From positions 1-37,246 of IMG/VR virus record IMGVR_UViG_3300009182_002621: 37,246 bases of DNA; one strand, given 5' to 3'. Origin of the DNA: a virus. Below the pieces are notes generated by a model. It was not told the origin of the DNA. It saw only the letters and a list, made by a program, of their open reading frames with translations, and did no database searches. Positions 7,370-32,119 of this stretch are shown piece by piece. Each line of letters begins with the position of its first letter. The stretch's first letter is position 1. Both the position numbers and the translations under genes were made by a program.

Positions 7370-7370
7370 C

Positions 7371-9527: not shown

Positions 9528-10603
9528 AACAAGTCCTTAAATTTAAACGGAGGTTTGATGAATCCTGAGTTCTTTTCAAATTTCATAATTTGCTTTATAG
9601 CCTTTCTATGTTGTCTAGCATATTCTTCTTGTAAGAATGGTTCATAAAAACTATCAAGTAGATTATCATAAGTGTGTTCTATACGATAAATCTTTCTGTT
9701 TTCAGTCTGTCCTACACGTCGATGTAGGGTAATGCTGTTATCAAAAGTCATGAAGTCGCCTTCTTGTGTATACCAATGGTCATAAACATATTTGTCTGTA
9801 AATAACTCTTTGCTAATAGCATTGAAAATCTTATGGCTCTCTTTGACACTAGCATCTTTAATTGAAAACAATGTTGGTGGTGCAAAATGTAATCCTTTGA
9901 TTCCGCCAGGACTTTGTATTACCATTGGTAATTCTATATCATTCTCTGGACACATTTTAAAACGAAGAACTGCTTCTTCGCTAGGTTTAAATGGAGGATA
10001 TACATCGGCATTTGTATATCGATGCAATACTCGCATGTCATCTAATTCACTACGGAAGCTATTACTTACATTTTCGTAATAGTCAGCAGTATTAACAAAA
10101 CCTGTTGCAGTTCCAACTACATTCTCTGCGGCCAACAAACTAACAGCAGGCTCAAAAACATAATTTCCACTTGAGTGCATATGCCAGTCTAATTCTTGTC
10201 CGCCGTATAAACCGTACTCGCCTTTACTATCTTTTGTTGAGCTAAAAAAGTTTACGCTTTTTCCGTTAGTAGTAGTAATACTAGCTTGATATAAAATATC
10301 AAGTATGTCTTTGTCTTCTTGTTCTATGAAAGGAAGGTCAGCAAGAACAGACGATTGAAATGTATTCCAATCTAATTTATATTTTTCTTGCAGGGCATAT
10401 TTTAGTCCCCAGAACTCAGAACCCCATTGATGTATAAGTTCAGAGAATTTATCTACTGTACAGTTACTCCCACGCACAATAGTAACAAGATTCTGTAAAT
10501 GTAATTTACCTACTTCTTGCCATTCATCAGAAGTTATATTATTCAAATCTAAATCGTCAATAATAATTCCGTAATTACCGACAGGAAATTTTGTTACTCT
10601 CAT
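9524..10603 (-). CDS. TauD/gamma-butyrobetaine hydroxylase-like oxygenase with HxH motif
   Basis: This 359-residue protein has the layout of the TauD/TfdA family: LDWHMHSSG at 139-146, LLAAENVVGTATGF at 157-169, a distal HRR at 294-296 and an Arg near 303-307 for the 2-oxoglutarate carboxylate. The iron-binding HxD is replaced by His141-Met-His143, so the facial triad may be three histidines. Canonical members hydroxylate taurine, carnitine precursors and similar compounds, or halogenate when the Asp is lost to a small residue. It lies between a radical SAM gene and a methyltransferase gene with four-base overlaps at both ends, so the three are probably made together. Confidence 0.75.
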   Translation of the reverse strand: MRVTKFPVGNYGIIIDDLDLNNITSDEWQEVGKLHLQNLVTIVRGSNCTVDKFSELIHQWGSEFWGLKYALQEKYKLDWNTFQSSVLADLPFIEQEDKDILDILYQASITTTNGKSVNFFSSTKDSKGEYGLYGGQELDWHMHSSGNYVFEPAVSLLAAENVVGTATGFVNTADYYENVSNSFRSELDDMRVLHRYTNADVYPPFKPSEEAVLRFKMCPENDIELPMVIQSPGGIKGLHFAPPTLFSIKDASVKESHKIFNAISKELFTDKYVYDHWYTQEGDFMTFDNSITLHRRVGQTENRKIYRIEHTYDNLLDSFYEPFLQEEYARQHRKAIKQIMKFEKNSGFIKPPFKFKDLL

Positions 10604-13459: not shown

Positions 13460-13464
13460 ACAAC

Positions 13465-13470
13465 TATTTA
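13465..13470 (-). promoter_or_regulatory. Late-type TAAATA five bases before a start codon
   Basis: Read on the reverse strand, ATAAATA is followed by GTTGT and then ATG 13459. With T4 late spacing, transcription would begin exactly at the A of the ATG. It is paired with an opposing copy at 13475-13480, making a compact divergent promoter. Confidence 0.45.
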
Positions 13471-13474
13471 TGTG

Positions 13475-13480
13475 TAAATA
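13475..13480 (+). promoter_or_regulatory. Late-type TAAATA promoter candidate
   Basis: TGTAAATATC precedes the mini-ANL gene. A start near 13486 would fall inside or just before the ribosome site GGCGGAG (13484-13490), leaving a leader of about ten bases before ATG 13497. Confidence 0.45.
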
Positions 13481-13496
13481 TCTGGCGGAGATAAAA

Positions 13497-15942: not shown

Positions 15943-15948
15943 TATTTA
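15943..15948 (-). promoter_or_regulatory. Late-type TAAATA overlapping an upstream stop codon
   Basis: On the reverse strand GAATAAATAC contains the TAA stop of the gene at 15946-16671 as part of TAAATA. A start near 15937 gives a leader of about 24 bases with the site GGGAAAG before ATG 15913, so the propeller gene can be transcribed separately. Confidence 0.45.
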
Positions 15949-16671
15949 TTCTATATTACCATGCATACCTGCAACTTCTGGTATGTAATCTATGTCTATT
16001 CTTGATAACAAGTGTACTCTTTCCGTAGCACCCCCGTTAAATGTACCGTGCGGCACTATAGGGTTGATAATATACATTTTTCCTAATTCCATAGGATAAA
16101 CTCTTTCATCATTCTCCCCAAACGTAAATACTGCATCTGGATTCGTGTATAATGGAATGTGTAGCTTCTTTAAATCACTATCAACATGATTAGTTACTCG
16201 TAATCCCGGAGGGTGTCTTGATACTAACATCTGACGTAAAGCACGTTCTGACAGTGTGTCTAATAGCTTTTTTAATATTCCAAAAACATAGCGTGTTTGT
16301 GGATGTGCTGTTTCTGCAAATTCCATTTGCCCAATATCTTTTATTTCGGGATAAACATCTGGATTAGCTTGGAATCTGCTAGGGCAAGGAATATCACGCT
16401 CAACTGGCCAGCTAATAGACCAGGCATCCACATTACCTATATAATTTCCAACCTTTTGTTCTTTTTGAAATCGTTCATATACTTCCGGACGAAGATATTC
16501 TTTAGAATTAAAATTAAAACAGAAGTGTTCTAGATCTGTCTTTAACTTATAATAATACTCACTTAGCTGTACAGGGTCAACAGTTAAATCAAGTTCAATA
16601 ACATCCCATTCATTACTAGTTAGGAATTCTGTTGTTAAGTCTAAAGTATTAGAATTTTTTAAATGTCTCAT
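15946..16671 (-). CDS. HxD aspartyl-hydroxylase-like oxygenase, paralogue 1
   Basis: The 241-residue protein has its core near the C-terminus: RHPPGLRVTNHVDSD with His162-x-Asp164, then KKLHIPLYTNPD, LGKMYIINPIVPHGT with distal His208, and ERVHLL with Arg218 for 2-oxoglutarate. The HIPL strand and NxxxxH pattern recall aspartyl/asparaginyl beta-hydroxylases, but those use no Asp, so this is an HxD variant. Three more paralogues lie in the same operon (16668, 17656, 18327). Its N-terminus aligns with that of the paralogue at 18327. All probably bind Fe(II) and hydroxylate or desaturate related substrates. Its start overlaps the preceding gene by four bases. Confidence 0.72.
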   Translation of the reverse strand: MRHLKNSNTLDLTTEFLTSNEWDVIELDLTVDPVQLSEYYYKLKTDLEHFCFNFNSKEYLRPEVYERFQKEQKVGNYIGNVDAWSISWPVERDIPCPSRFQANPDVYPEIKDIGQMEFAETAHPQTRYVFGILKKLLDTLSERALRQMLVSRHPPGLRVTNHVDSDLKKLHIPLYTNPDAVFTFGENDERVYPMELGKMYIINPIVPHGTFNGGATERVHLLSRIDIDYIPEVAGMHGNIE

Positions 16672-17246
16672 AGTTGTTTAACTGCTAACACAGTGTCAAT
16701 CATGTCTGCCGGTACTTTAAAAAAAAGGTGCGCCCTATTAGTGTTACCTAAATTATTTGTGCCATGCAGTATACTAGTATTTACAAGATATGCTTTTCCT
16801 GGCTCAAACACAAATTGCTCATCTTCAAATATAAAATAACTGCTATCATTACCTGTAATAGGAATATGTATTTTAATCCATTTTGGTGTATCAGTGTGTA
16901 GATTTATTACAGTGCCCGGGGGATGTACTGCAATGCTATGTTGTCTCGAATAAGGAAATGCTTGTTTAATTTTTTCTGCAAACCCAAACATGAGAGCAGT
17001 GTCTCTGTATTCTTGTGTACCATCTTTATGTACATGATAGGGCGGGCATGGAACTGTTAGATCTTTTAAATTACTTTGGATGCCCCATCCGTAGACTCCG
17101 TCGATCTTATGCTTGTTAGCATCGGCTGCATTGTCCATGGAACTGTTCCATTGTAAGTGTATCCAAGAACTACTAAGATAGTTAAAATAATCAGTTAGTT
17201 CCTGCAGGGAAAATTCTAAATCTAATTGTTTTATTTTCCAGTCCAT
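16668..17246 (-). CDS. HxD aspartyl-hydroxylase-like oxygenase, paralogue 2
   Basis: The 192-residue protein is the shortest copy. AVHPPGTVINLHTDTP gives His117-x-Asp119, IKIHIPITGND follows, then EPGKAYLVNTSILHGT with His161 and NRAHLFFKV with Arg171. It lacks about 45 residues at the N-terminal side relative to paralogue 1, so its substrate-binding half is reduced. Four-base overlap with the next gene and a 16-base overlap with the phosphatase gene upstream imply tight co-translation. The intact iron and co-substrate residues suggest an active enzyme. Confidence 0.7.
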   Translation of the reverse strand: MDWKIKQLDLEFSLQELTDYFNYLSSSWIHLQWNSSMDNAADANKHKIDGVYGWGIQSNLKDLTVPCPPYHVHKDGTQEYRDTALMFGFAEKIKQAFPYSRQHSIAVHPPGTVINLHTDTPKWIKIHIPITGNDSSYFIFEDEQFVFEPGKAYLVNTSILHGTNNLGNTNRAHLFFKVPADMIDTVLAVKQL

Positions 17247-17659
17247 ACTTCTCTCAACAATTTTAAAACATGTGGGTTACCATTTTCAGTATTATTGATA
17301 AATGATTCTACTGCTACGCTTCTAGATTTTCCCTTAGTGCAATAAATGTTTACAATACTATCATCTGATATTTGGTTAATGAATTCAACTAATTCAACTG
17401 CTTGTGCCTGTGTCATTGCTCTAGCATTGTAATGTGCTTGTATGTCGTCACCCCATTTAACCGTATCTTCTACACAATCGTCAAATTCTAATCTAATAAC
17501 ATTGGAGTGATTTCTAAAGAAATATCTACCGGCATGCAGACCACCTGTAGGATCAATGCAGATAAAATATTCAGCAACTGTTGAAACATTTGTATCATCA
17601 ATGTTTCTTGTTTTCATAGCAGTTACAAATGCCGTTTTTGAATACACATTGGTTTTCAT
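17231..17659 (-). CDS. Second CX5R cysteine phosphatase-like protein
   Basis: In this 142-residue protein the signature IVNIYCTKGKSRSVAVE contains Cys107 and Arg113 in a CX5R loop preceded by a hydrophobic strand. The usual His before the Cys is Tyr here. The upstream WGDD segment (69-72) offers candidate general-acid Asp residues. This layout matches small dual-specificity or cyanophage-type phosphatases and resembles the protein encoded at 51-518 only in the loop. It sits inside a run of four paralogous oxygenase genes with overlaps on both sides, so it probably works on the same substrate set, perhaps removing a phosphate added by the APH-like kinase encoded at 19071. That link is inference. 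Confidence 0.7.
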   Translation of the reverse strand: MKTNVYSKTAFVTAMKTRNIDDTNVSTVAEYFICIDPTGGLHAGRYFFRNHSNVIRLEFDDCVEDTVKWGDDIQAHYNARAMTQAQAVELVEFINQISDDSIVNIYCTKGKSRSVAVESFINNTENGNPHVLKLLREVWTGK

Positions 17660-18327
17660 AATTTTAAATCAATAATGTCTTGCGTCCATACTTTACCATA
17701 TAAGTGGATCCTATCGGTAGTTCCTTTATTTTCTAAACTGTGAACAAGTGTAGTATTAACTAGATAAGCCCAGCCTGGCTCCATGTGTACTTCTTCTCCA
17801 TTAATGATCCACTTACTTTCATCGTTAGTGTATATAGGAATATGTACACGAATTTTATCTGGAGAATCTTGATGATCTATTAATTTAGTACCCGGGGTGT
17901 GTATTGTCACTAGCCATTTTTTACTGCGAATAGGCATTGCTTGTACTAGCTCTAATCCGTAACCTGTAAAACATTTACGTGGATTCAGTAAGTTGTTGTC
18001 CTTATCTTTGTATTCAGATTTAGCTTGCCCCTGCTCAAATGGTTTAGGTCCAGGTTCATCGCTGTTCCAGCATAGGGTATAGTATGCAGTATCCTCCATT
18101 AGACGGTGACCTGTTTTGCCTTCAGGATCGCCAATATCCTCGATCCACACATGTCTAGTATCACCGTAGATAAACTTCCAATCACTGTAGTCTCTTTCTA
18201 AGTCATAGTACCAGTTGCGTAGTTTATCTATATCAACTTGGAACCAAGGTTTAATCTTCCATCCCAAATCTACTTGCGGATAGGTCTGTATATAACGTTT
18301 GAATCCTGGAATCCCGATTCCGTCCAT
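17656..18327 (-). CDS. HxD aspartyl-hydroxylase-like oxygenase, paralogue 3
   Basis: The 223-residue protein has TIHTPGTKLIDHQDSP with His152-x-Asp154, RVHIPIYTNDE, EPGWAYLVNTTLVHS with His196, and DRIHLY with Arg206. The core is nearly superimposable on paralogues 1 and 2 by eye, while the first 120 residues differ, for example an insertion with KDKDNNLLNPRKCFTGYG. Different front halves with one catalytic core suggest different substrates or sites. It overlaps the phosphatase gene by four bases and touches paralogue 4 by one. Confidence 0.72.
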   Translation of the reverse strand: MDGIGIPGFKRYIQTYPQVDLGWKIKPWFQVDIDKLRNWYYDLERDYSDWKFIYGDTRHVWIEDIGDPEGKTGHRLMEDTAYYTLCWNSDEPGPKPFEQGQAKSEYKDKDNNLLNPRKCFTGYGLELVQAMPIRSKKWLVTIHTPGTKLIDHQDSPDKIRVHIPIYTNDESKWIINGEEVHMEPGWAYLVNTTLVHSLENKGTTDRIHLYGKVWTQDIIDLKL

Positions 18328-19043
18328 TAGATTGCTATCCTAGTGTTTACTAATTTTAAGACTGTTTCAATTGTTGGATCAGAAATAATGTGTGATCTAG
18401 TTTTTCCTTCATTAACAGTTGAATGCCATACAGACGCATTAATTAGATATACTTTGCCTGTTTCTAATATGTAAGATCTTTCTAGTTTATCACCATATAA
18501 GAATTTAGAATTAGGATGTGTTATGATAGGTATATGTACTCGTAAGCATCTATAATTTCCATCAACATGTCCAAGTATGCCGGCTCCGTCGTAATGTTGT
18601 GTAATTCTACACTGTCTAAATACATCCGATCCTAGTGTTTCGATTAATAGTTTAAAATACATTTTATTGTATTTTTCTTGTATTTTAAAAGGCAATCCCT
18701 GAGACAACTCTGGATAAAATTCTTCCTTGGCAGCGAACGGCGGGGGTATAGGCAAGTCTGTTTCAGCAGGCCAATCTAATCCCCAACTGGATATTGGGCC
18801 GTACAATCTATTGCTATGACCATAAAGAGAGTGTACGCTTGGGGGGACATATTGATCTTTAATGTAAGGGTTGTTAAAAAAACTAAATTCTAAATTAATA
18901 TAAGTTGTAGTGACATAATTGTACCATTCTAATAGCTCATCGCTATTCACAGTTATAGGTAATTCAATTATGTCCCAATCTAATCCGCTCAAAAAGTCTT
19001 CTGTGATCTCTGCAGGATTGTAATCTACGATATATCTTTTCAT
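18327..19043 (-). CDS. HxD aspartyl-hydroxylase-like oxygenase, paralogue 4
   Basis: The product has 238 residues when started at ATG 19043. That start makes the N-terminus (MKRYIVDYNPAEITEDFL) align with paralogue 1; an ATG at 19070 would add nine residues and abut the divergent gene. Core residues are GHVDGN with His159-x-Asp161, LRVHIPIITHPNSK, TGKVYLINASVWHS with His207, and KTRSHII with Arg216. The alternating WDIIELPITV and WDVIELDLTV segments of copies 1 and 4 show that these two are sisters. It is the first gene of the five-gene oxygenase/phosphatase operon; no clear promoter was seen in front of it. Confidence 0.72.
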   Translation of the reverse strand: MKRYIVDYNPAEITEDFLSGLDWDIIELPITVNSDELLEWYNYVTTTYINLEFSFFNNPYIKDQYVPPSVHSLYGHSNRLYGPISSWGLDWPAETDLPIPPPFAAKEEFYPELSQGLPFKIQEKYNKMYFKLLIETLGSDVFRQCRITQHYDGAGILGHVDGNYRCLRVHIPIITHPNSKFLYGDKLERSYILETGKVYLINASVWHSTVNEGKTRSHIISDPTIETVLKLVNTRIAI

Positions 19044-19059
19044 CGTGTACTTATCAGAG

Positions 19060-19065
19060 TAAATA
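19060..19065 (+). promoter_or_regulatory. Late-type TAAATA five bases before ATG
   Basis: AGTAAATAAACAT precedes ATG 19071. With T4 late spacing the start point coincides with the A of the start codon. No ribosome site exists upstream, which supports a leaderless message. Confidence 0.45.
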
Positions 19066-19070
19066 AACAT

Positions 19071-21340: not shown

Positions 21341-22490
21341 ATCTTTTGAAGACTATTATAGAGAAGCTGAGATTAAACATCTTGTGTTATTCAAACACAA
21401 CAATTACTTAATCAGTCCGCCATTTTGTACAGACAAGTGCAAAGACTACAGTCGTGTCCTAATTTATAAGGACGGAGAATGGGTATGGTTTGATGTAGAT
21501 ACACCGCCTGCTACTAGCAAATATAATTCTATGATTAGCATAGGTGACAGTGCGTTCTTTGCACCGTATGGAATATGGGACGAGTTTAATACTGTATTAG
21601 AACTCAACACTAGTGGCCCTGGTAAAGCAACATATCATACACTTAATAGTACCGCCAAGGGGCAATTTTATAATATGGCCAGTGACGGCACTACTGCATT
21701 TTCAGCGCCTCTTGGCTACGAAGAAGTTAGCTTTGGTTTGTTTATTAAGGATGGTAAGGTAAAACAAATTCCCTTTCCCGTAACTGGAGAACTTAAAAAG
21801 CATATGGGCACAGTCTGGGCTAACGGCCATTACTGGAGTGCTCCCCGAGGTGAAAGTTATGACTACAAACAAATTTTAAAGTTTAATCCCAATACGGAAG
21901 AACTAAGTTTTATTACAGTTGACTTGCCTCAAGCAAGACGTAAGTATAGTGACTTTATTGTTGCTGGAAACAAATTGTTTGCTTTACCGTTAGGCAGAGA
22001 CATTGAACTACATCAAATGCTAGTAGTAGATACTACAACCGATAGTGTAGAATTAGTAGACCTTAATGTTCCTAGCTTTGTAAAAAAATACAATGCCGGT
22101 GTGTTACTTGACAATGTAATTGTTGCACTACCCTACGGACATAAAGATAACGGTGATGCTAACCACGGACTGGTGTTTAATACTGATACTTATGAACATT
22201 CAACATTTGACATAGGATTAACATTTGGCGGCAAATACAGATTCCGTTCGGGTATTGAATATAACGGTGTTGCAGTATTTTTACCTACAGGTACGCCTAA
22301 TGCTGATATCATAGTTGTAGATAAAACTGGTAATATTTTATTTAGGAAAAGTTTACCCGAGTACGTGTTAGGAAGACCGATTACACATAATAACCTCGTT
22401 TACACAGTTGCATACGATGTCCTAACTAAAAAACATTCAATACTAACTATTGATAGCAGTTACAGATTTAACTTTGACGAAATTTTTTAA
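21330..22490 (+). CDS. Beta-propeller-like repeat protein C
   Basis: This 386-residue paralogue of protein B has turns FFAPYG, FSAPLG, WSAPRG, FALPLG, VALPYG and VFLPTG, each followed by a Dx(N/T)T strand such as VVDTTTDSVELVDL or VFNTDTYEHSTF. The repeat length is again near 50 residues. It is translationally coupled to protein B by an 11-base overlap. Its last 48 bases overlap the convergent end of the radical SAM operon. Joint expression of B and C from a late-type promoter suggests a complex, possibly on the virion surface or as a scaffold for the tailoring enzymes; neither is shown. Confidence 0.62.
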   Translation: MSYKSFEDYYREAEIKHLVLFKHNNYLISPPFCTDKCKDYSRVLIYKDGEWVWFDVDTPPATSKYNSMISIGDSAFFAPYGIWDEFNTVLELNTSGPGKATYHTLNSTAKGQFYNMASDGTTAFSAPLGYEEVSFGLFIKDGKVKQIPFPVTGELKKHMGTVWANGHYWSAPRGESYDYKQILKFNPNTEELSFITVDLPQARRKYSDFIVAGNKLFALPLGRDIELHQMLVVDTTTDSVELVDLNVPSFVKKYNAGVLLDNVIVALPYGHKDNGDANHGLVFNTDTYEHSTFDIGLTFGGKYRFRSGIEYNGVAVFLPTGTPNADIIVVDKTGNILFRKSLPEYVLGRPITHNNLVYTVAYDVLTKKHSILTIDSSYRFNFDEIF

Positions 22491-23312
22491 TTTGTTTATA
22501 ATTTCAATCTGAGTTAAATTTTCTAAATTACTCAATTTTAAATTTAATTGTGCAACTGGTATAAATCCTAATGCTAAATTCTTTATACCTAATTGTTTAA
22601 AAAATTTATCATTAGCAGTAGCCCATTGTTTAACACGTTGATCAAATATTTCAAATTCGTTCCTTGGCCTATCTGTAAAGAATTTAAGTTTAAAATCTGC
22701 GCTGTAATACTCTAAAGGTTTAATATTGTGATCTCCTACAATATCATCATTGTCAATAAACAATTCAAGTAGATGTTTACCTACTTCGCAGTAGTTGATA
22801 TAAATTGTTCCAAACTGCCAATCATAGGTAAAATGGTCATAATCGCTAGTAGTTAGTTTAATCCTAGGACATTTAAACGTACAAGTAATAGTTGGGGATA
22901 AGTGCTTACTGTTTAATAATTTTTCATAGTTATGAATATAAACATTAAAATTTAATATAGCCTCTTGAACACGTTCCGGAGCAGATGTATACCAAGCTGA
23001 CGGAGTTAATGTACCACCTCTAAGAGTTTCAAAAAACTTATGTAAGTAATTTAAATCAGTAGATGTATTAACTATAGGAATAGTATTGGGCTGATACTCA
23101 TTAACGATAGATACACAATTATTAATTTCTTGCAGATATCTATTAGCATCCCACTGCGAGTCAGGCCAGCCTGTAAATCGCCAATCTTCAAAAAGTGGAT
23201 AATTATTTTCTATTTCTAGAAACCATCTATTAGCAATACTTGTATTAGTTAGATCAAATATTAAATCGTAATTGCTATCTGCATTGCCTATAGTAACCTT
23301 AACTTTATTCAT
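22443..23312 (-). CDS. Unknown protein closing the radical SAM operon
   Basis: I do not recognise this 289-residue protein. It is soluble, rich in Asn, Asp and aromatic residues, and holds a WRFTGWPDSQWD segment near 44-55 and a YDWQFGTIYINY strand pair in the middle. It has only four Cys, none in a cluster pattern, so it is not an evident Fe-S protein or a Cys-rich peptide substrate. It is the last gene of the operon, overlapping the radical SAM gene upstream by eight bases, and therefore probably a partner, carrier or substrate of these enzymes. Its 3' end overlaps propeller C. Confidence 0.6.
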   Translation of the reverse strand: MNKVKVTIGNADSNYDLIFDLTNTSIANRWFLEIENNYPLFEDWRFTGWPDSQWDANRYLQEINNCVSIVNEYQPNTIPIVNTSTDLNYLHKFFETLRGGTLTPSAWYTSAPERVQEAILNFNVYIHNYEKLLNSKHLSPTITCTFKCPRIKLTTSDYDHFTYDWQFGTIYINYCEVGKHLLELFIDNDDIVGDHNIKPLEYYSADFKLKFFTDRPRNEFEIFDQRVKQWATANDKFFKQLGIKNLALGFIPVAQLNLKLSNLENLTQIEIINKLKNFVKVKSVTAINS

Positions 23313-24201
23313 TTTCTTTTCTAAGGTATATGTCGCTTAAACAACTGCATAGATCTTTACCACAAGTAAGTGTGGTAGTAGGTAGTGTAAAATCTTTTAT
23401 AGTACCTAATGGTCGTTGACCGCAATCGGCACTAAACACATTTCCGGTATAGTCAATATTAAGCATATCTAATCCTGCCCAACAAGTCCATCCTTTATGT
23501 TTATTCAAGCCTTGGAGAACTAGTTCGTTTGCAGTAATTAATTTTCCATCCAACATTAACTTGCCTCGGTGCATTTTTGTATCATCAAGATTTCTAAAAT
23601 AAGGCCAATTTTTAATTAACTCTTGCTGTGCTATAGTATACTCTGATACCTTATTAGTCATATTGATCTTATCTAAAACCATTTTTGGCCAAATAGCAAC
23701 TTTACTATTTTCATAGATATACTTAGATAGCTCTACTAACTGATCAAATTTATCAGGCATCATCATCATATTAACGGCTACAGGCACTTCAACAGCATTA
23801 GAAATCTTAATAAAATGATCTGGGTCAGTATATTCAGGATGATAACTTAATAGTATACCTGTTGAAAATTTTCCAATTGAAGAAAAGTAAGTCTCATCTC
23901 GACTGCCGTTTGATAGGAATGTAAAACTGTTACCATAAGAGTGTGCAAGTTTAGCTAGGTCTGGAAAGTATTTCCAATACGTAGGTTCGCCGCCGCTGAT
24001 TCTAAAGCAAATATCTTTATGCGGTAACTGTTCGTTTATAGTCTTAACAAACTGTTCAACATCATTCCAGTCTGGCCAGCCAGTACTTCCGTCATTAAAC
24101 ATACTAGGACAGTAACTACAACGATAGTTACACTTGTTTCCTAAATTCCAAGTTATAAGGAACCAGTTGTTTTTATCAAGATTATGATAAGTTAATTTCA
24201 T
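23305..24201 (-). CDS. Radical SAM protein, paralogue family 1
   Basis: In this 298-residue protein, LITWNLGNKCNYRCSYCPSM carries the CxxxCxxC cluster ligands Cys24, Cys28 and Cys31, and ISGGEPTYW (68-76) is the SAM-binding GGE motif. A shared 'SYHPE' motif lies after strand 4. The C-terminus has GWTCWAG, SADCGQ and LTCGKDLCSCL, a twitch/SPASM-like cysteine set likely to bind an auxiliary Fe-S cluster. Such enzymes modify peptides or small molecules by hydrogen abstraction. It is one of four sisters in this operon (with 27225, 29895 and 30838) that share the YHxE motif. Confidence 0.85.
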   Translation of the reverse strand: MKLTYHNLDKNNWFLITWNLGNKCNYRCSYCPSMFNDGSTGWPDWNDVEQFVKTINEQLPHKDICFRISGGEPTYWKYFPDLAKLAHSYGNSFTFLSNGSRDETYFSSIGKFSTGILLSYHPEYTDPDHFIKISNAVEVPVAVNMMMMPDKFDQLVELSKYIYENSKVAIWPKMVLDKINMTNKVSEYTIAQQELIKNWPYFRNLDDTKMHRGKLMLDGKLITANELVLQGLNKHKGWTCWAGLDMLNIDYTGNVFSADCGQRPLGTIKDFTLPTTTLTCGKDLCSCLSDIYLRKENE

Positions 24202-24860
24202 TCTGCAATTAGATTGTTTACAATTAATCTACGTGTACGTTCAGTTAGTTTAACAGTTAAAATTAATGCGTGTAGCCCATTACTAAAACTAAACACACTA
24301 TGATCTAACTGAGTATTAGAAAAATATAACCATCCTGCTTCTGGATAGATTGGTTTACCATCTATCATCTGTACATAATTTTCCGGACTACATCTTCCAA
24401 ATACAGCTAGCAATCTAAAATATTCTGGACTTACTTCATGGAAATCTCGATGTGGTGGAAAGAATCCCCCTTGATCAATCCTTAAAAAATGTACACGACC
24501 AATGTCAGGTGCAAACACATCGACTAGTGATTTAATTTCAGGAATGGAATTGTATACTTCTGTAGGTGTATTAAAGTTTTCTTCTTTCATTTCAATGTTG
24601 TGATATTTTTGCATATATCCGAAACTATTAAGATGATAATTATCCATAACATCACCAGTGTGACTAGTAACAGGTAATCCCCAACGATTATTATGTTGAT
24701 CTTTTTTTTGATTATATGGACACCAATTATCTTTAAATTCTAATAATTGTTGTTCAACATCAATTGGACTAAAATGCCATTTAGTTTTAACAAAGTTTCC
24801 TAAATTTACTAGACTATTCCATAGTGCCGCACGTTCTAATTCTTCATTAGTCATTTGCAA
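24198..24860 (-). CDS. Putative Fe(II)/2OG-type oxygenase in the radical SAM operon
   Basis: The 220-residue protein has FLRIDQGGFFPPHRDFHE, which supplies His137-x-Asp139, the first two iron ligands. LLAVFGRCSP follows, then EAGWLYFSNTQLDHSVFS with distal His187 and a final ALILTVKL strand. This matches the jelly-roll of phage 2OG oxygenases (P4H/AspH-like), with 2-oxoglutarate probably held by the Arg or Lys on the last strands (TVKLTERTRR). It sits between two radical SAM genes with overlaps of four and fourteen bases, so hydroxylation and radical chemistry are probably steps of one pathway. Confidence 0.65.
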   Translation of the reverse strand: MQMTNEELERAALWNSLVNLGNFVKTKWHFSPIDVEQQLLEFKDNWCPYNQKKDQHNNRWGLPVTSHTGDVMDNYHLNSFGYMQKYHNIEMKEENFNTPTEVYNSIPEIKSLVDVFAPDIGRVHFLRIDQGGFFPPHRDFHEVSPEYFRLLAVFGRCSPENYVQMIDGKPIYPEAGWLYFSNTQLDHSVFSFSNGLHALILTVKLTERTRRLIVNNLIAE

Positions 24861-26277
24861 TACCTTTTAATTCGGGAAATATTTCCTGCCATTTTGTTCC
24901 TCGTATACTGTCCATATTATCTGCGTATTCAACAAACGCTGGTATTAGATGTGTATGATCTTCTGCTAATACAAATTTAAGTATAGCTTCCCATCGTCTC
25001 CAGCCGTTTGGATTATCCTTCCAAAACATATCGTCTTGTGTATAATTATCCCATAGCCATTGTTTAAAATTTAAAAATTGTTCAACTAATTCTTCTTTAT
25101 CTTTTTTTGGCAATATGCGAGCACTTAGGTATGTAGGAAGATAAAGGAAATGCATATTGATTATACCGCCGCCTGCTTCATATTTTTCAATTTTAAATTT
25201 ATTAATCTTCTTAAAATTCTTTTGAATTTTCCACTTGGCAAATTCTATTATATGTTTAATATTAAAAATTTGGATAGCACACGCAATTCCTACTTTAATG
25301 TTGTCTGGTGTGTTATCTAATTTTTCTAAAGCATCAAGCGTTTCGGCCCAACTAACTGGATATCTAATATAAGTATTGCGCTCATCAAGAGCATCAATAC
25401 TAAATGCAAATCGTACTTCTTTAAAATTACTCCATAGATCAATCATTTTATCATCTACTAGTACACCATTAGAATTGTATCGTACTGTTATATTTTTACT
25501 AAAACCTCTACGAACAATTTCTTCAAGAAATCGTCTATGCTCTTTGATCATTAACGGCTCGCCACCTGCAAAATATAACTGTTGTATATTAGGAATCTGA
25601 TCAAATATTTCTTCCCATAATTCAGGACGTTCATACCATGTGTTGTTAAACTTATCTTTATCCCAATCAATCTGTTGTAGAATAATCGGAGCTCGTGTCT
25701 TTTTAACTAGCTGATCGTGATCTTGTGTCCATCGACTGCTATCGTGAGGTGTACACATAATACATTTTAAATTGCAAGTATGACCCAATCTTAAATCCAA
25801 ATATCGGATTACAGGAGGTACTGTTCCGTCATCTTGTGTAGCTTCTATTATTTCTTTTAGATCAAGCCCTTCTTGATCCCAGTAGTAAGTTTCCCATACA
25901 CGTTTACTCATCATGCCGTTAGACTCTTCTTCAAAGCATTTAGCACAACTTAGTGGAATCTTTTCTTCTAACATTGTTACACGAACATCTTTCATGTATT
26001 CGTTATTAAATGCACTCATTAAGGTGTCAGTTCCAAAGTTAGCAGGATGACCATTTTCTTTTTTAACAAGTCCTGCATCCATAATACCTTTAGTAGCTTG
26101 GCTAGCATTACTACCACAGCAAAGCCGAGCATCACCATTAGGACGTGTGGCTACATGAATCCAGGGAAGAGCGCAAAAGGTTGAAGTATTAGAAATATCT
26201 TCAATACGGTCCTGCCAGGCTTTAAGAGTCTGATTGTTATGTGATTTCCAAAATATTTTGTTAGTTGAATTGTTCAT
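24847..26277 (-). CDS. Radical SAM protein with N-terminal SPASM-like cysteine motif
   Basis: The product has 476 residues from ATG 26277, which lies within the end of the upstream gene; a longer frame from 26370 has no family residues. CALPWIHVATRPNGDARLCC (35-54) and SCAKC (110-114) resemble the auxiliary-cluster half of SPASM enzymes but precede the core. The radical SAM core begins at LRLGHTCNLKCIMCTPH with Cys168, Cys172 and Cys175, and YFAGGEPLM follows. The usual order is core first and SPASM last, so this looks permuted; similar twitch-domain radical SAM proteins occur in marine phages. The C-terminal 150 residues are unassigned. Confidence 0.82.
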   Translation of the reverse strand: MNNSTNKIFWKSHNNQTLKAWQDRIEDISNTSTFCALPWIHVATRPNGDARLCCGSNASQATKGIMDAGLVKKENGHPANFGTDTLMSAFNNEYMKDVRVTMLEEKIPLSCAKCFEEESNGMMSKRVWETYYWDQEGLDLKEIIEATQDDGTVPPVIRYLDLRLGHTCNLKCIMCTPHDSSRWTQDHDQLVKKTRAPIILQQIDWDKDKFNNTWYERPELWEEIFDQIPNIQQLYFAGGEPLMIKEHRRFLEEIVRRGFSKNITVRYNSNGVLVDDKMIDLWSNFKEVRFAFSIDALDERNTYIRYPVSWAETLDALEKLDNTPDNIKVGIACAIQIFNIKHIIEFAKWKIQKNFKKINKFKIEKYEAGGGIINMHFLYLPTYLSARILPKKDKEELVEQFLNFKQWLWDNYTQDDMFWKDNPNGWRRWEAILKFVLAEDHTHLIPAFVEYADNMDSIRGTKWQEIFPELKGIAND

Positions 26278-27232
26278 TAAATTTATCCACAGTACCGCAT
26301 TGTCTACTACACGCACGTAATGGACTTTTAGTCCATGTATTTTCAATTTTTGTAAAGAAATCACTTTCAAAAATTGCTATTAAATCTGTTATGTGCAAAT
26401 TAGGATTTGAAAATCCGTTATTAACAAAGTCAGTATAACTAGGTGAACTGTCGGGCATTGCATTAAAGTCTAGCCAACAGCATGGTGCAATCTTACCTTC
26501 TGCACTAATGTATAAACTACCGGGTAATTTTACCTTACAGTTTATTATAGGTTTTTGATTTTCTAATTTTTCAGTAATCTTTTTACTTTTAATTGACGGG
26601 ATTAGTATATGACTAACTGTTCCATCTTTATTTAATACTTTAAGATCGTCCGATTGGAATCTGCTGGTGTTTTTTGATACAAACTTTTTAAAACCCATTT
26701 GTTCACTAGTACTGCGACAAGCATTTATCTCGTGTTCATTATGTTGAAACACTAGCATGTGCCACTCAGCTTCGCCGCCTGCTTGAATAAATGCATCAGC
26801 ATTACGCAAGATTTGATGATAGTCTGTTCCTATACGGTATAGATGATGCGTAGTGCTAAGTCCGTCAATACCAAATATAACTTTAACACCAATTGTGGCT
26901 AGATCCCTCCACCATCGTTGATTTCTAGCACTACCATTTGTATTCATGCTCAAATCAATTGCAGGATTTGTTTCTTTCAAATATTTAAATATCTCTAAAG
27001 TATCACCGGCTACTATTGGATCTCCTGTATTACCACACATATACAGTCTATCTAATTGTTTTATAAATGTAGTTGGAAACCATTCTTTAAAATTAGACAA
27101 TGTAATTTCAGATAACTTTAGATTAGGACTATCAATACCACCTTGTATATTTCTTACGCACATAGGACAACTAGCCTGGCATCGACTAGTGATTTCAAGA
27201 TGTACTGTTTTAATATCTTCTAACTTATACAT
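26261..27232 (-). CDS. Radical SAM/SPASM-type protein
   Basis: In this 323-residue protein, HLEITSRCQASCPMCVRN holds Cys18, Cys22 and Cys25, and YMCGNTGDPIVAGD takes the place of the GGEP motif, as in a subset of SPASM proteins. The C-terminal region INCKVKLPGSLYISAEGK, followed by APCCW and ACSRQCG, is a classic SPASM cysteine set. It is of a different branch from the four YHxE sisters in the operon. It overlaps the preceding gene by eight bases and the following one by seventeen. Peptide or protein modification is the commonest role of SPASM enzymes. Confidence 0.85.
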   Translation of the reverse strand: MYKLEDIKTVHLEITSRCQASCPMCVRNIQGGIDSPNLKLSEITLSNFKEWFPTTFIKQLDRLYMCGNTGDPIVAGDTLEIFKYLKETNPAIDLSMNTNGSARNQRWWRDLATIGVKVIFGIDGLSTTHHLYRIGTDYHQILRNADAFIQAGGEAEWHMLVFQHNEHEINACRSTSEQMGFKKFVSKNTSRFQSDDLKVLNKDGTVSHILIPSIKSKKITEKLENQKPIINCKVKLPGSLYISAEGKIAPCCWLDFNAMPDSSPSYTDFVNNGFSNPNLHITDLIAIFESDFFTKIENTWTKSPLRACSRQCGTVDKFNEQFN

Positions 27233-28241
27233 TTGTTTTATGTTTGTTGATACGAATTTCTGTCTTGCAACCGCAAGTAATCATTGAGCACTTAATTGGT
27301 TTAACAACGTCGGGTGTAAATTCTATATTAAAATCTTTATCATTGATGTTGAAAAAAGTATTACCATAGATACCTCGCTCTCCGCAAGTACCTTGAATTG
27401 AACCATTTGTTTGTATATTAACTCTATCAATTCCTAAGTTACAAGTCCATCCGTAAAAATTGTTTAATTTATTGCTAATCATATTAAACGAAGAATATGG
27501 TTCAATAGTTCCGTTATCCCATTTAATAAGTGCTTTTGTTTTATCTTGTTGTATGTTGTTAAGTAACCGCATTTTTAAAATAAACTCATCAGGAGGTATT
27601 TTTTTTATTTTATCTTTAAGATATACTAGCTGATCATCTGTGTATTCTTTAATAGTCCCTAATTTGTCACCTTGTGTCTCTACTAACGTAGTTACTTTGA
27701 CCAACCAAGGAATTGGATGTATTACTAGCTCATCTACTAGTACTTTAGATTTATCCCAGTTTAACGGATCCATTAATACTGATGCTGATACCATAACTGT
27801 TCCTTTAGAATATACTAAATTTAATACATTTTTAATATGTTCTAAGTTACAAAATTCATGATGGACACTAATTGCAATATCATTAAAATACTCTGCATAC
27901 TCTTCCCACCATCTAATAGTCCTTGACCCGTTAGTATCTAATGAAATTCTACAGCCATGCTCTTCATGTAGGTACTTTACAAATTCTCCAAGTTTTGGCC
28001 ATAAGGTAGGCTCTCCACCTGTTAGTTCAATACTAATACTTTTTTTGTTAAAATGAGTTCTATATAGAGTAATCAAATGATTAAAGTTTTGTTTTACTAT
28101 TTCATAGTCCGGCCATCGAGAAGTGCCAACATGATTTGCAGGCCAACAGTAATTGCAACTATAATTGCACACATTTGTAAATTCATATCGGATGCTAAGA
28201 TATTCGTCAAAATCTGAATTTATTATTGCAATAGGTTTCAT
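27225..28241 (-). CDS. Radical SAM protein, paralogue family 2
   Basis: In this 338-residue protein, YEFTNVCNYSCNYCWPAN places Cys25, Cys29 and Cys32, and IELTGGEPTLWP is the GGE motif. SVHHEF corresponds to the YHxE motif of its sisters, with His for Tyr. The C-terminal GWTCNLG, GTCGERG and CSMITCGCK form the auxiliary-cluster pattern also seen in the protein encoded at 23305, down to spacing and the surrounding 'VNIQTNG' strand. The two are therefore close paralogues with probably similar but not identical substrates. It overlaps both neighbours by four to eight bases. Confidence 0.85.
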   Translation of the reverse strand: MKPIAIINSDFDEYLSIRYEFTNVCNYSCNYCWPANHVGTSRWPDYEIVKQNFNHLITLYRTHFNKKSISIELTGGEPTLWPKLGEFVKYLHEEHGCRISLDTNGSRTIRWWEEYAEYFNDIAISVHHEFCNLEHIKNVLNLVYSKGTVMVSASVLMDPLNWDKSKVLVDELVIHPIPWLVKVTTLVETQGDKLGTIKEYTDDQLVYLKDKIKKIPPDEFILKMRLLNNIQQDKTKALIKWDNGTIEPYSSFNMISNKLNNFYGWTCNLGIDRVNIQTNGSIQGTCGERGIYGNTFFNINDKDFNIEFTPDVVKPIKCSMITCGCKTEIRINKHKTNV

Positions 28242-29305
28242 AGGGTTGTTTGCCCAGAATAGAGTAGAGCTAAATCTATAAAGTTTTCTGTATTTTTTAA
28301 AGGTGACACATATTGCATTATACTTGGATACGTTCTTTCTATCAGTTGCTTTGATATTGATGCATCTAACATCTGAGTCTTTAACGTATTAAAACTTAAA
28401 TTAAGTGTTAGTTCGTTAATTGTTAAATCATCTAATGGAGCAAATGTTAGGGTATTTCCAAGATGCCAATGTTGGAAATCAAAATTATTCCGACTATAAA
28501 TTGATTGCTTTAATTCATATTCAGTATTGTATGCAGATGTTAACTCTCTATATCCATGTATATGTTTGTCTTTTAAAAAATGTTTACTATGGTAATAATT
28601 ATTAGATCGACATTCATCAACTAGATCTTCACCGTAGAATTTCATTATGTTAAATGCATCATATGGATTTCTTATCATCATCTCATCGCCATTGGCTCCG
28701 GATAATAACACAGACGATGTTGTCCAGTGATGTATTGATTTGTAAGCCCAGAAATTTTTTAATTTTTTACGATTCCAACACAAAAAATAATCTAGATCAA
28801 TATGTTCTGACCTTACTAGCTCGTAGGGTAATTTATGTTTTAAAACATATGCACTAATTAGAGCAGTATCAACCCCGCCAGTTAAAAATATTTTAAATGG
28901 TTTGTTTGAATTAAAATTTAAAATATTATTAGTAATTGTTTGATCAATTTGATCAATAATTTCAGAATCAGATAATTCTAATTCTTTAAATTGAGGAGTA
29001 GGAGCATCAATTTTTATAATAGTATCATCTACAATTATTACTTTGCCTACAAAAATTGTAGTTTGAAAAAATAAATTAGAAATTATAAAATTAGTTTCAT
29101 CTATAAAAATAGGAAAACTTTGTCTTCCATTTGGCATAATAGTAACAATACTATCAAATAAAATTTCACATCCTTTCCCATTATACCCTTTAGTGATAGA
29201 TGTCTTATTAACCGTCCAGCCATCATCAAAATCTATGAACAAATTTCCACTTCTAATATGATTAGGAAAACTATTATTTTGAATTTTACTAATTGAAAAA
29301 AACAT
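28238..29305 (-). CDS. Asparagine-synthetase-like ATP-pyrophosphatase (no glutaminase domain recognised)
   Basis: In this 355-residue protein, IFLTGGVDTALISAYV (139-154) is the PP-loop of N-type ATP pyrophosphatases (SGGxDS, here TGGVDT), and VLLSGANGDEMM (199-210) matches the second AsnB motif (GEGSDE-like). The N-terminal 130 residues are beta-rich but lack the Cys2 nucleophile of class II glutaminases. The protein should adenylate a carboxylate or amide, but would take ammonia or another nucleophile from elsewhere. Related enzymes close lactams or form amides in natural-product pathways. Set between a methyltransferase-like gene and a radical SAM gene with touching ends, it supplies a likely bond-forming step. 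Confidence 0.7.
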   Translation of the reverse strand: MFFSISKIQNNSFPNHIRSGNLFIDFDDGWTVNKTSITKGYNGKGCEILFDSIVTIMPNGRQSFPIFIDETNFIISNLFFQTTIFVGKVIIVDDTIIKIDAPTPQFKELELSDSEIIDQIDQTITNNILNFNSNKPFKIFLTGGVDTALISAYVLKHKLPYELVRSEHIDLDYFLCWNRKKLKNFWAYKSIHHWTTSSVLLSGANGDEMMIRNPYDAFNIMKFYGEDLVDECRSNNYYHSKHFLKDKHIHGYRELTSAYNTEYELKQSIYSRNNFDFQHWHLGNTLTFAPLDDLTINELTLNLSFNTLKTQMLDASISKQLIERTYPSIMQYVSPLKNTENFIDLALLYSGQTTL

Positions 29306-29904
29306 TAGATTTTTCCTATAATCATATATCTATTATACAGTGGTAATTCTAACTCTCCTGCCCACAATACATTAATATGACTTTGTTCTTTAAAAGTTTC
29401 TAGACTATCGGCAGTGCGTACATGTTCTGGAATTTGATAATTGTTACTTTGTAATACAAGAATCTGATCTGTATTTCGTTTACTCAACCAAGTTTCATAC
29501 TGCTCTTGGGTTATGTGTTCACAGCTGGTATTGATTACGACATCGACAAAAGATATCAGATTGCACATGTCGCCAGTACTAGCTGTAAATCTACCCGCTA
29601 TTTCTTCACCTTTGTTCATCATAGTAGCGATAGGTTCACACGTAGGATCAATGTCGAGACTGTAAATGCGTTTAATTGGAATGTTACTTTGAAATAGCAT
29701 ACTAGCCAATACACCTACCCAGCCTCCATGTATTTCGATACTAACCGGATCATCCTTAACTGAGAATTGCATACTCAATGCTTCGATAAGCCATTCTTTA
29801 CTTTTTAGCTGACCCGACCAAAAGGCATCCATAGTCCGCAAGGGATCTGGGCTTTGTCGGATGGCCTGCATCCAATAATGTAAGTGTTCGGTATCTATTT
29901 GCAT
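29305..29904 (-). CDS. Putative class I SAM methyltransferase-like protein
   Basis: The 199-residue protein has IEIHGGWVGVLASMLF (57-72) in the position of motif I, RIYSLDIDPTCEPIA (79-93) as motif II with an acidic residue after strand 2, and FVDVVINTSCEHI as motif IV. The overall layout is that of small Rossmann methyltransferases, but the glycine loop is atypical (GGWVG rather than GxGxG), so binding of SAM is likely rather than certain. Its stop and the next start share one base (TAATG), and it overlaps the radical SAM gene upstream by ten bases. Confidence 0.6.
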   Translation of the reverse strand: MQIDTEHLHYWMQAIRQSPDPLRTMDAFWSGQLKSKEWLIEALSMQFSVKDDPVSIEIHGGWVGVLASMLFQSNIPIKRIYSLDIDPTCEPIATMMNKGEEIAGRFTASTGDMCNLISFVDVVINTSCEHITQEQYETWLSKRNTDQILVLQSNNYQIPEHVRTADSLETFKEQSHINVLWAGELELPLYNRYMIIGKI

Positions 29905-30863
29905 TTTGGTATTTTACTATCAGCTGAACTAACACACGTAGGTGTTACACATAACTTAGGAGTGGAAAATAAATTAAATTTTTCTAAATCTCCAAGTGGC
30001 GCTTCGTGGCAGCTATACGCCCTTTTAATTTCATTGCCTCTTATTATAACACTTTGATACCCACTATTACAATACCAATTGGTGAATTTATTAAATCCAA
30101 ATGCGTTAAATCTTTCAGCTTGATCAAATAGGTATTCAGTATTAGTTGAATCATATAATGCTATTTGATAAATGTCTTCTCCGTCTGCTCGTTGCGGGAA
30201 TCCATTTTGCATTATTTCAATCATTTCATTAGTATAACCATCTACTATCTTACTAGCAGTAGGATCACTTTGCGGCTTGAGTGTTACATTAATTCCTCTC
30301 TTATGCAATCTCTCGCAACGGTTTAGTGTTTCAAAAAACTGCTCGGGAACCATAACTTGATTAACTGTTAGCAAAACTCCTTCAGTTATCAATCGTAAAC
30401 ACTTATCGCCAAACTCTTGTTCTTTAGCAAACTCTGAGTGATAACTAGCCGTTATACTTCTACGTTGTAAAAGTGCAGTATGGTTACACCAAGTTTCCCA
30501 CCATTTGATTCCTGGACTAAGATTTGTAGTCATATGTATACTTTGATACTGACTTTCTTTTTCATCTAAATGTTTGGTTAACTCTAGTAGGTGTTTGTAG
30601 GCAGTAGGCTCACCTCCGCTGAACGACCAATGGAACTGGTTAAACCCATTGGCTCGAGCTTGGCGTTTAATCTCGTCTACAGTAGATTTATATACTTCAA
30701 GCGATTGGTGATCCGGCATGTCGGATCTAGCATATGGCCAACAGTAACTACACTTGTAATTACAGAATCTACCCAATATCCAGCTAACATTAAACAATGG
30801 ACGATCCAGCATTGTCCGTTGTCCAAACTTGACAATTTCACTCCACGGTATTGACTGGTTCAA
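29895..30863 (-). CDS. Radical SAM protein, paralogue family 3
   Basis: In this 322-residue protein, WILGRFCNYKCSYCWPYAR gives Cys34, Cys38 and Cys41, and FSGGEPTAYKHL is the GGE motif. TASYHSEFA is the sister-specific YHxE motif. The C-terminal cysteines NWYCNSG, YSCHEAPLG and KLCVTPTC complete an auxiliary-cluster set. It belongs with the proteins encoded at 23305, 27225 and 30838, sharing also WPxxxxxxxPD after the third Cys. It overlaps the upstream sister gene by 26 bases, an unusually long same-strand overlap even here. Confidence 0.85.
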   Translation of the reverse strand: MNQSIPWSEIVKFGQRTMLDRPLFNVSWILGRFCNYKCSYCWPYARSDMPDHQSLEVYKSTVDEIKRQARANGFNQFHWSFSGGEPTAYKHLLELTKHLDEKESQYQSIHMTTNLSPGIKWWETWCNHTALLQRRSITASYHSEFAKEQEFGDKCLRLITEGVLLTVNQVMVPEQFFETLNRCERLHKRGINVTLKPQSDPTASKIVDGYTNEMIEIMQNGFPQRADGEDIYQIALYDSTNTEYLFDQAERFNAFGFNKFTNWYCNSGYQSVIIRGNEIKRAYSCHEAPLGDLEKFNLFSTPKLCVTPTCVSSADSKIPKCK

Positions 30864-31932
30864 GATAATGCCTCATTATGTTGTTATAATCATAATATTT
30901 TTTTGCTTTAGGAGCACATAATCCACATCGACATCTGTGTTTCCCACATACTATTGCTGGAGGTTGTTTTTGTTTAATGTTATCAATAATCAATTGAGCA
31001 TCTGACAAATACCCTATAGGAGCAATTTTCCCATCAAAGTTCATCATACAGTCTTTATTAACAAATACCTCTTTAGTAACTTGTTTAACAAATACGAAAA
31101 AATAATGTACGCTACAATGCCACCCTTTAAAATTATTATTAGGTATATAAGGCTGACTAGAACTATAATCAGCATTTACATGCATCTCGTTACCTCCGCA
31201 ACAACTACGACCGTTGCTATCTAAATTTATAATTGATATAATTTTTTTATGTAACGGTATCTTTGTAGTAATGCCATACAACTCGTCAAACCATTTTATT
31301 TGATCTTTTTTATAATAATCGAAATCAAAATCATGTTCAAGTTGTCTTGGCAAATGGGGTATATTATTATCCTTACACCATTCAATCATGCTGATACTAT
31401 TGTTCCAATGTTTAGGATGCATCATTATTGCACATTTAAAATGCTTGCCTTTTTGCTTTAAATCTAACAAATTTTGTTTAAATAAATCTTGTTGTTCTAT
31501 AGTAGTTTCTGAATGATAACTTACTGTCCAATAATCAATCTTATCTACAATTCTATCCCAAATTTTTTCTTTAACTATTGCGTTTGTAATAGTTTGGATA
31601 CTTAAAGACCATTTATCTTTGTATTGTTCGTGCTGTATTTTGATGTAATCCAAAATTTCTACAATATTTGGATGAAATAAACTTTCGCCACCAAACACAT
31701 TTAACCCTGCTCTACGTTGTGAAGGTAACTTGTATGCCATATAAGCATCAACATATTCTAGTAAAAAATCAACCGTTTTTAAACATTCCTCCAAAGTTGG
31801 ATGAGGGATAGCATTGTTATGATAATTTTTACTGCAATACGAGCAGTCCAAATTACACTTCAAAGTAGTTTCCCATGTTATTTGGAAAACGGGCGCATCA
31901 TCTAGTGTAGGTTCAATAACAGAGTAATTCAT
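30838..31932 (-). CDS. Radical SAM protein, paralogue family 4 (operon leader)
   Basis: In this 364-residue protein, ITWETTLKCNLDCSYCSKNY holds Cys26, Cys30 and Cys33, and FGGESLF stands for GGEP. TVSYHSETT is the YHxE motif. The C-terminus carries GWHCSVH, NKDCMM and the dense set CGKHRCRCGLC, which gives more cysteines than in the sisters and could bind two clusters. It is the first gene of the ten-gene reverse operon. TAAATA lies six bases upstream of ATG 31932 and no ribosome site is visible. Confidence 0.85.
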   Translation of the reverse strand: MNYSVIEPTLDDAPVFQITWETTLKCNLDCSYCSKNYHNNAIPHPTLEECLKTVDFLLEYVDAYMAYKLPSQRRAGLNVFGGESLFHPNIVEILDYIKIQHEQYKDKWSLSIQTITNAIVKEKIWDRIVDKIDYWTVSYHSETTIEQQDLFKQNLLDLKQKGKHFKCAIMMHPKHWNNSISMIEWCKDNNIPHLPRQLEHDFDFDYYKKDQIKWFDELYGITTKIPLHKKIISIINLDSNGRSCCGGNEMHVNADYSSSQPYIPNNNFKGWHCSVHYFFVFVKQVTKEVFVNKDCMMNFDGKIAPIGYLSDAQLIIDNIKQKQPPAIVCGKHRCRCGLCAPKAKKYYDYNNIMRHYLEPVNTVE

Positions 31933-32008: not shown

Positions 32009-32119
32009 GTGGACGTGAGCGGAATTTGGTATACCTCCTCCTAGTAGCGCAAGCGAACGGAGGGCAAGGGTCTAGCTCTTAGAGCGACTTTGCAGGTTCG
32101 AATCCTGCCGTCTACACCA
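32009..32119 (+). tRNA. Non-canonical 111-nt tRNA-like RNA, anticodon not assignable
   Basis: The acceptor stem GTGGACG (32009-32015) pairs with CGTCTAC (32109-32115) over seven base pairs including one G-U, followed by discriminator A and an encoded CCA. The T arm is perfect: GCAGG, loop TTCGAAT, CCTGC. The D loop GGAATTTGGTATA with its GG pair recalls leucine tRNAs, but the D stem is weak. Between D and T arms, CCTCC (32037-32041) pairs with GGAGG (32059-32063) around a 17-nt loop that holds GC-GCAA-GC instead of a 7-nt anticodon loop. It is followed by a long arm with GCTC-TTA-GAGC. Normal tRNAs have 75-95 nt. It may be a tRNA with an insertion, a decayed tRNA or a tRNA mimic. Confidence 0.65.

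Follow-up and report, generated by a model that had tools for sequence, protein, structure and literature searches.

The window analysed here, 37,246 bases long, is the whole of the IMG/VR virus record IMGVR_UViG_3300009182_002621, itself a phage fragment. On its minus strand, from position 31932 down to 22443, lie ten open reading frames (ORFs) that overlap end to end, and six of them encode radical S-adenosylmethionine (radical-SAM) proteins; genes are named below by their lower coordinate and the recurrent ones also by the labels in Table 1. Four of the radical-SAM genes (29895, 26261, 24847 and 23305) form, with the methyltransferase-like gene 29305, a core that recurs in dozens of related phages amid continually reshuffled accessory genes, and members of the same core occur in Bdellovibrionota chromosomes accompanied by glycosyltransferases. 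We give about even chances that the unit is a pathway tailoring a glycan or glycoconjugate, probably one that alters the surface of the infected cell.

Phages rich in radical-SAM genes have posed a puzzle since CP220 was described in 2010, and a substrate has never been assigned. The abundance of such genes in one phage region, singled out in an initial annotation of this DNA, is indeed striking, but it has been reported before (PMC2853527, PMC12390700, PMC7029224). The novel elements are a constant core with a combinatorial shell and a bacterial module tied to glycosyltransferases, none of which turned up in the papers searched, together with a covarying tRNA-like RNA next to the operon; a literature search for jumbo-phage or Bdellovibrio radical-SAM genes combined with glycosyltransferases yielded no report. 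A defined core with a bacterial counterpart and a statistical tie to glycosyltransferases renders the substrate question testable and, if the proposed role is correct, phages would be running a combinatorial surface-decoration chemistry with a variability comparable to that of bacterial O-antigen loci.

The radical-SAM operon

All six operon proteins pass the curated cut-off of PF04055 (E values 5e-16 to 3e-7), and a scan of the whole record with this profile yielded exactly seven radical-SAM proteins, these six and the product of 10600, as the initial annotation had proposed from their motifs. The CxxxCxxC motif, read directly, is intact in each of the seven. Profile comparison sorts them into four groups: family I, the N-terminal-twitch protein 24847, the SPASM-like 26261, which scores 21.2 bits against PF13186, just under the 21.5 cut-off, and the long 10600, whose extended N-terminus is probably of the B12-binding type.

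Family I comprises 29895 (A), 27225 (C), 23305 (D) and 30838 (F), linked by hhalign at 99.6–100%. They had been considered products of expansion by duplication, and recent duplication was rejected because their pairwise identities are only 22–34% and each has its own family across other phages; they are old, separate families. Searches of cultured phages with 30838 and 27225 by tblastn gave no match.

The operon structure was borne out, as was the picture of one transcription unit inside a phage, with a tailoring-type gene mix and a fibre gene nearby. The ORF of 24847 has probably been called too long, as its homologues start near a methionine at about 26277, and its overlap with 26261 would therefore shrink to about 17 nucleotides. 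Frames of the operon genes are intact in relatives across dozens of contigs, and the core is under purifying selection, with non-synonymous divergence (dN) of 0.07–0.34 for most pairs and saturated synonymous divergence (dS). A candidate late promoter, TATAAATA, was rejected, having one site against 8.4 expected.

A constant core in a variable island

Most window genes have homologues in a 356-kb relative (G001), arranged in long stretches of synteny at about 215–282 kb; they include the fibre gene 2178, whose homologue lies inside the island of that phage. The relative encodes structural proteins, a DNA polymerase and a tail sheath, the last sharing 44–45% identity with the sheaths of Agrobacterium phage Atu_ph07 and Sinorhizobium phage Phosso. 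The synteny, the fibre gene and the sheath therefore identify the window as a fragment of a jumbo myovirus and the island as a region of the host-recognition type; like the host-recognition clusters of myophages, it is hypervariable and contains tail fibres. The window has no nucleotide match among cultured phages.

The comparison phage contigs are mostly fragments, and 16 islands were long enough for their gene orders to be compared. A and E are present in all 16 and B, D and the methyltransferase-like gene (MT) each in 15, and these islands display 15 distinct gene orders. The shell, which comes and goes, includes C, F, B12-type radical-SAM proteins, four kinds of oxygenase, SGNH, pyridoxal phosphate (PLP)-dependent and QueC-like proteins, as well as NAD-epimerase, DegT, class-III aminotransferase, GT8 and a fusion of APS-kinase and cytidylyltransferase. 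Nine island-bearing viral records each carry 8–13 radical-SAM genes, and in six contigs a fibre gene lies 7–33 kb from A. In one phage island the fusion (family 67, L030:7220-8011) joins an APS-kinase-like to a cytidylyltransferase-like domain, an arrangement reminiscent of the phosphoramidate capsule pathway of Campylobacter.

The protein encoded at 22443 and the propeller-like proteins had been suggested as shared targets of the enzymes. Only a minority of islands contain relatives of 22443, and 4/16 contain the propellers; therefore neither can be the target of a near-universal core. The propeller-like proteins are encoded at 14666, 20120 and 21330 and carry repeated (Y/F)xxPxG motifs; homologues of the last two recur beside gene D in a subset of phages.

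Several known phage systems resemble this arrangement in part. Campylobacter phages CP220 and CPt10 encode 11–12 radical-SAM proteins per genome in interchangeable modules, one of which holds about five radical-SAM genes (PMC2853527). The CP220 stretch also has nucleotide-diphospho-sugar transferase-like neighbours, and its proteins match families I and III here, at only about 23–24% identity; it differs in that family II, the N-terminal-twitch group, appears as weak matches only and that genes of the 29305 and AspH types are absent from the stretch examined. In pelagimyophages, radical-SAM cassettes are exchanged within a host-recognition cluster that also holds fibres and glycosyltransferases, the latter proposed to alter the host surface against co-infection (PMC7029224). 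Such a cluster, for example that of Mosig, is hypervariable, lies beside tail fibres and contains AspH, TauD, methyltransferase, desaturase, GNAT and radical-SAM genes (PMC7029224), with homologues of the 29305, PLP, oxygenase and SGNH types in common with the islands; however, it belongs to another phage lineage, provides only two radical-SAM matches and lacks the constant core A+B+D+E. Aeromonas giant phage 332-Vera has eight radical-SAM genes within its structural gene cluster (PMC12390700), but it is a phiKZ-like member of the Chimallinviridae and its resemblance to the window is one of gene content. Phosso and Atu_ph07, the closest cultured lineage by the tail sheath of the 356-kb relative, carry small radical-SAM clusters of weakly related families, with no orthologue of 29305 or A in the stretch examined.

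Bacterial counterparts and glycosyltransferases

The single 24847 sequence found nothing when used as a query of genome contigs, whereas an alignment of B yielded 57 loci. Relatives of B, 40–46% identical to 24847, are located in Bdellovibrionota chromosomes on contigs of up to 936 kb, and in several loci A, E, B and MT are consecutive. These loci thus hold the same four families as the phage core, often side by side; they differ in the presence of GT-A or GT2 genes and the absence of the tRNA-like RNA, and phage A forms one old clade separate from bacterial A (support 100/100).

A is present in 16 of 241 Bdellovibrionota genomes. MT accompanies it in 16/16, against 9/225 genomes without A, and a family of GT-A glycosyltransferases in 13/16 against 2/225 (p = 5e-19 and 5e-17, respectively, in Fisher exact tests that count related genomes as independent). 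The GT-A gene is often on a different contig from A, and the association is therefore not one of mere neighbourhood. Since the three remaining A-positive genomes have GT2 genes beside A, a glycosyltransferase accompanies the module in every A-positive bacterial genome. In one locus (L157) the neighbours, read from sequence, include epimerase-like, AsnB-like and acyltransferase-like proteins.

Members of the GT-A family have about 300 residues and an invariant DxD motif. A sequence search against the PDB gave no match; the AlphaFold model has a predicted local distance difference test score (pLDDT) of 90, and a fold search matches it to solved GT-A glycosyltransferases. Both phage records exceeding 330 kb encode the family, and in one its genes stand on either side of a group of five radical-SAM genes; five further phage contigs have it upstream of A. 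This family of jumbo phages and Bdellovibrionota, exemplified by L110:11331-12973, L068:6522-8100 and L152:8225-9870, is missed by Pfam and PHROGs.

Proposed role and alternatives

From these data we infer a substrate, reactions, an acceptor and a benefit as follows. The constant core would act on a conserved scaffold, which swappable enzymes (further radical-SAM proteins, AspH-type and other iron- and 2-oxoglutarate-dependent (Fe/2OG) oxygenases, SGNH, PLP, QueC-like and AMP-ligase-like proteins) would decorate differently in each phage. The GT-A glycosyltransferase, whose gene lies beside the island or, in large phages, at another place in the genome, may then attach the product, most likely to the surface of the infected cell, and competing phages or the phage's own progeny would cease to bind. 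The recurrence of the core with reshuffled extras in phages, and beside sugar-attaching enzymes in Bdellovibrio-like bacteria, makes variable surface decoration the most likely role. The neighbouring fibre gene, the degree of reshuffling and the example of the pelagimyophages (PMC7029224) point the same way. Further support comes from the NAD-epimerase, DegT, aminotransferase, GT8 and APS-kinase/cytidylyltransferase families of the phage shell, from the neighbours of the L157 locus and from the 10 GT2 proteins among 121 bacterial neighbour proteins.

Several observations weigh against surface decoration. The window fragment contains no glycosyltransferase, Pfam GT2 is found in 0/12 phage records, and neither most phage fragments nor the cultured phages with radical-SAM clusters have a GT-A homologue. 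The bacterial statistics rely on genomes that share ancestry, and members of the bacterial profile were first found near the module, since the profile was seeded from such loci; the neighbour count that yielded the GT2 proteins also takes in unrelated flanking genes. The top structural matches of the GT-A family are peptide glycosyltransferases (ThuS and SunS) as well as O-antigen enzymes, and AspH enzymes classically hydroxylate protein residues.

The main alternative, to which we assign a distinctly lower though appreciable likelihood, is that radical-SAM crosslinks or methylations, AspH hydroxylations and glycosylation are introduced into virion proteins, such as the fibre or very large structural proteins, and serve to stabilise or retarget the receptor-binding apparatus. 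AspH enzymes are generally known to act on proteins, and a fibre gene is located in the island, an adjacency also expected of host-recognition islands. In Atu_ph07 and Phosso the small radical-SAM cluster lies a few genes from an annotated structural protein of about 4,450–4,560 codons, with a 22443-type neighbour at the Atu_ph07 cluster, and the eight radical-SAM genes of 332-Vera fall within structural genes (PMC12390700). The same core nevertheless stands beside glycosyltransferases in bacterial chromosomes, and no substrate protein accompanying the core everywhere was found.

It is rather unlikely that the unit makes a modified cofactor, nucleotide or DNA base, as in hypermodified phage DNA or a viperin- or queuosine-like molecule. 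Viperin and QueE are among the best weak profile matches, and the shell contains QueC-like PP-loop proteins, but those matches fall far under the curated cut-offs, so extremely reshuffled a shell does not resemble a DNA-modification pathway, and the bacterial core is accompanied by glycosyltransferases. Still less probable is a pathway like those for ribosomally synthesised and post-translationally modified peptides (RiPPs), in which radical-SAM proteins, oxygenases and a methyltransferase tailor a ribosomal precursor peptide into a bioactive one. The enzyme mix does recall that of proteusin pathways, and there are weak profile matches to peptide maturases. Against this natural-product interpretation, raised in the initial annotation, PqqD/RRE domains occur in 0/12 phage records, and a search near A on the strand of the operon gave no conserved small ORF resembling a precursor; the short conserved ORFs upstream of A that had been considered for this role turned out to be either the tRNA-like RNA read as protein or antisense to real genes. 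Least probable of all is a hitch-hiking cassette region maintained mainly by recombination with small benefit in the present host, as might be suggested by the content differing for nearly every phage pair and by the CP220 module having been thought probably non-essential by its authors (PMC2853527), because the core is under strong purifying selection, its frames are intact in dozens of contigs and phage A constitutes one old, fully supported clade.

A tRNA-like RNA at the island edge

On the plus strand, upstream of the operon, lies a tRNA-like RNA which apparently has not been described before. It combines a 7-bp acceptor stem, an encoded ACCA, a T arm and a leucine-type D arm with two variable hairpins that replace the anticodon arm; the hairpin loops vary across relatives and there is no conserved anticodon loop. 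Across 15 sequences, standard pairs make up 97.2% of the paired cells and two-sided changes number 48, a level reached by 0/500 shuffles, while slid control structures gave 36–56%. A loose promoter pattern precedes 31/31 distinct copies. The covariance model detects the RNA once per phage, at 52–131 bits, whereas no ordinary tRNA of the 356-kb phage scores above 34. Identity as a decoding tRNA was rejected, given the variable anticodon region, a score of 19.1 against RF00005 (gathering threshold 29) and the failure of ARAGORN to detect any tRNA in the window; an Rfam scan of the window yielded no family at gathering score.

The RNA is present in 55 of 61 contigs with at least 250 nucleotides upstream of A. 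A search of IMG/VR for the RNA itself recovered 104 stretches, and A is adjacent or close in about 84 of 101 testable contigs, while 32151/32447 lie downstream in 88/90; the RNA therefore marks the boundary of the island and is tied to the adjacent operon no less than to the radical-SAM genes. The 345-kb contig L239 and about 15 others carry the RNA and the 32151/32447 operon with no adjoining radical-SAM genes and are possible island-less relatives.

We regard it as very improbable that the RNA is a non-decoding, leucine-type aminoacyl carrier, which an anticodon-blind host synthetase would charge so that radical-SAM and Fe/2OG enzymes could modify the unactivated side chain held on it before transfer of the residue to an acceptor on the surface or the virion. 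The covarying tRNA fold, the encoded ACCA with discriminator A, the RNA's own promoter, its position beside A and a D arm nearest to tRNA-Leu in 29/31 copies are compatible with this idea. It is opposed by the roughly 16 of 101 RNA-bearing contigs without A alongside, the nearly constant 32151/32447 downstream, and the absence of the RNA from the bacterial islands.

Other genes of the operon and window

Coordinates of the features are collected in Table 1. Among the four operon genes outside the radical-SAM superfamily, 29305 carries motifs that fit a class I methyltransferase, and Pelagibacter phage Mosig encodes a weak homologue bearing a methyltransferase annotation; on these it remains methyltransferase-like, while profile support is absent, with no match in Pfam, NCBIfam or the PDB. 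The AsnB-like label given earlier to 28238 had a TGGVDT motif as its sole basis and was dropped: the protein has no match in Pfam, NCBIfam, PHROGs or the PDB, and comparison with PP-loop families by hhalign gave 11–18%, so that an identity as asparagine synthetase was rejected. The oxygenase at 24198 is supported through related profiles, being in the same superfamily as families 46 and 57, the former of which matches PF05118 at 9e-7. For 22443, rejected above as a shared substrate, no PDB entry matches the AlphaFold model at E<=0.001; the protein has ten viral structural relatives, including one in Atu_ph07 whose ORF sits inside the radical-SAM cluster of that phage.

Table 1. Features of the window discussed in the text, in order of position
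Position	Strand	Feature (label)	Evidence and occurrence
2178..3599	+	Tail-fibre-type protein, other side of the island	phrog_17312 tail protein, E 1.4e-11
8844..10603	-	Methyltransferase 8844 and TauD-type oxygenase 9524, coupled to 10600	PF13847, E 8e-16; PF02668, E 9e-20
10600..12540	-	Seventh radical-SAM protein	PF04055, E 1.8e-8; homologue in 356-kb phage
15946..19070	-	AspH-type oxygenases 15946, 16668, 17656 and 18327 and one other ORF, 17231	
22443..23312	-	Protein without recognised fold	Usually adjoins D; AlphaFold pLDDT 86
23305..24201	-	Radical-SAM, family I (D)	PF04055, E 7e-11; 15/16 islands
24198..24860	-	AspH-type Fe/2OG oxygenase	PF05118, weak, E 0.037
24847..26370	-	N-terminal-twitch radical-SAM, family II (B)	NF033640, 381.6 bits, cut-off 170; 15/16 islands
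26261..27232	-	Radical-SAM, SPASM-like C-terminus (E)	PF04055, E 2.8e-7; 16/16 islands
27225..28241	-	Radical-SAM, family I (C)	PF04055, E 5e-16
28238..29305	-	Protein with TGGVDT PP-loop-like motif	One near-identical relative only
29305..29904	-	Class I methyltransferase-like (MT)	Motifs; near-constant partner of A; relatives in 211 viral stretches
29895..30863	-	Radical-SAM, family I (A)	PF04055, E 9e-13; 63-78% identity across phages; constant first island gene in relatives
30838..31932	-	Radical-SAM, family I (F)	PF04055, E 1.5e-7; opens the operon here; accessory in relatives, 3/16 islands
32009..32119	+	tRNA-like RNA	Model R1, 126 bits; sigma-70-like promoter TTGACG-17-TATAAT 6 nt upstream

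Of the four AspH-type oxygenases between 15946 and 19070, the PF05118 cut-off is passed by 15946, 16668 and 18327, and 17656 was assigned by its BLAST match to 16668. Three consecutive fatty-acid-desaturase-like genes on the plus strand (6608-8869), with mutual identities of 37–61% and a PF00487 match for 6608 (E 2.7e-16), place lipid modification genes within the same island. Two further plus-strand genes, encoding a shortened AMP-binding ligase-like protein (13392-14138; PF00501, E 6e-19) and a short kinase-like protein of the APH/RIO type (19071-19568), are both conserved in the 356-kb relative.

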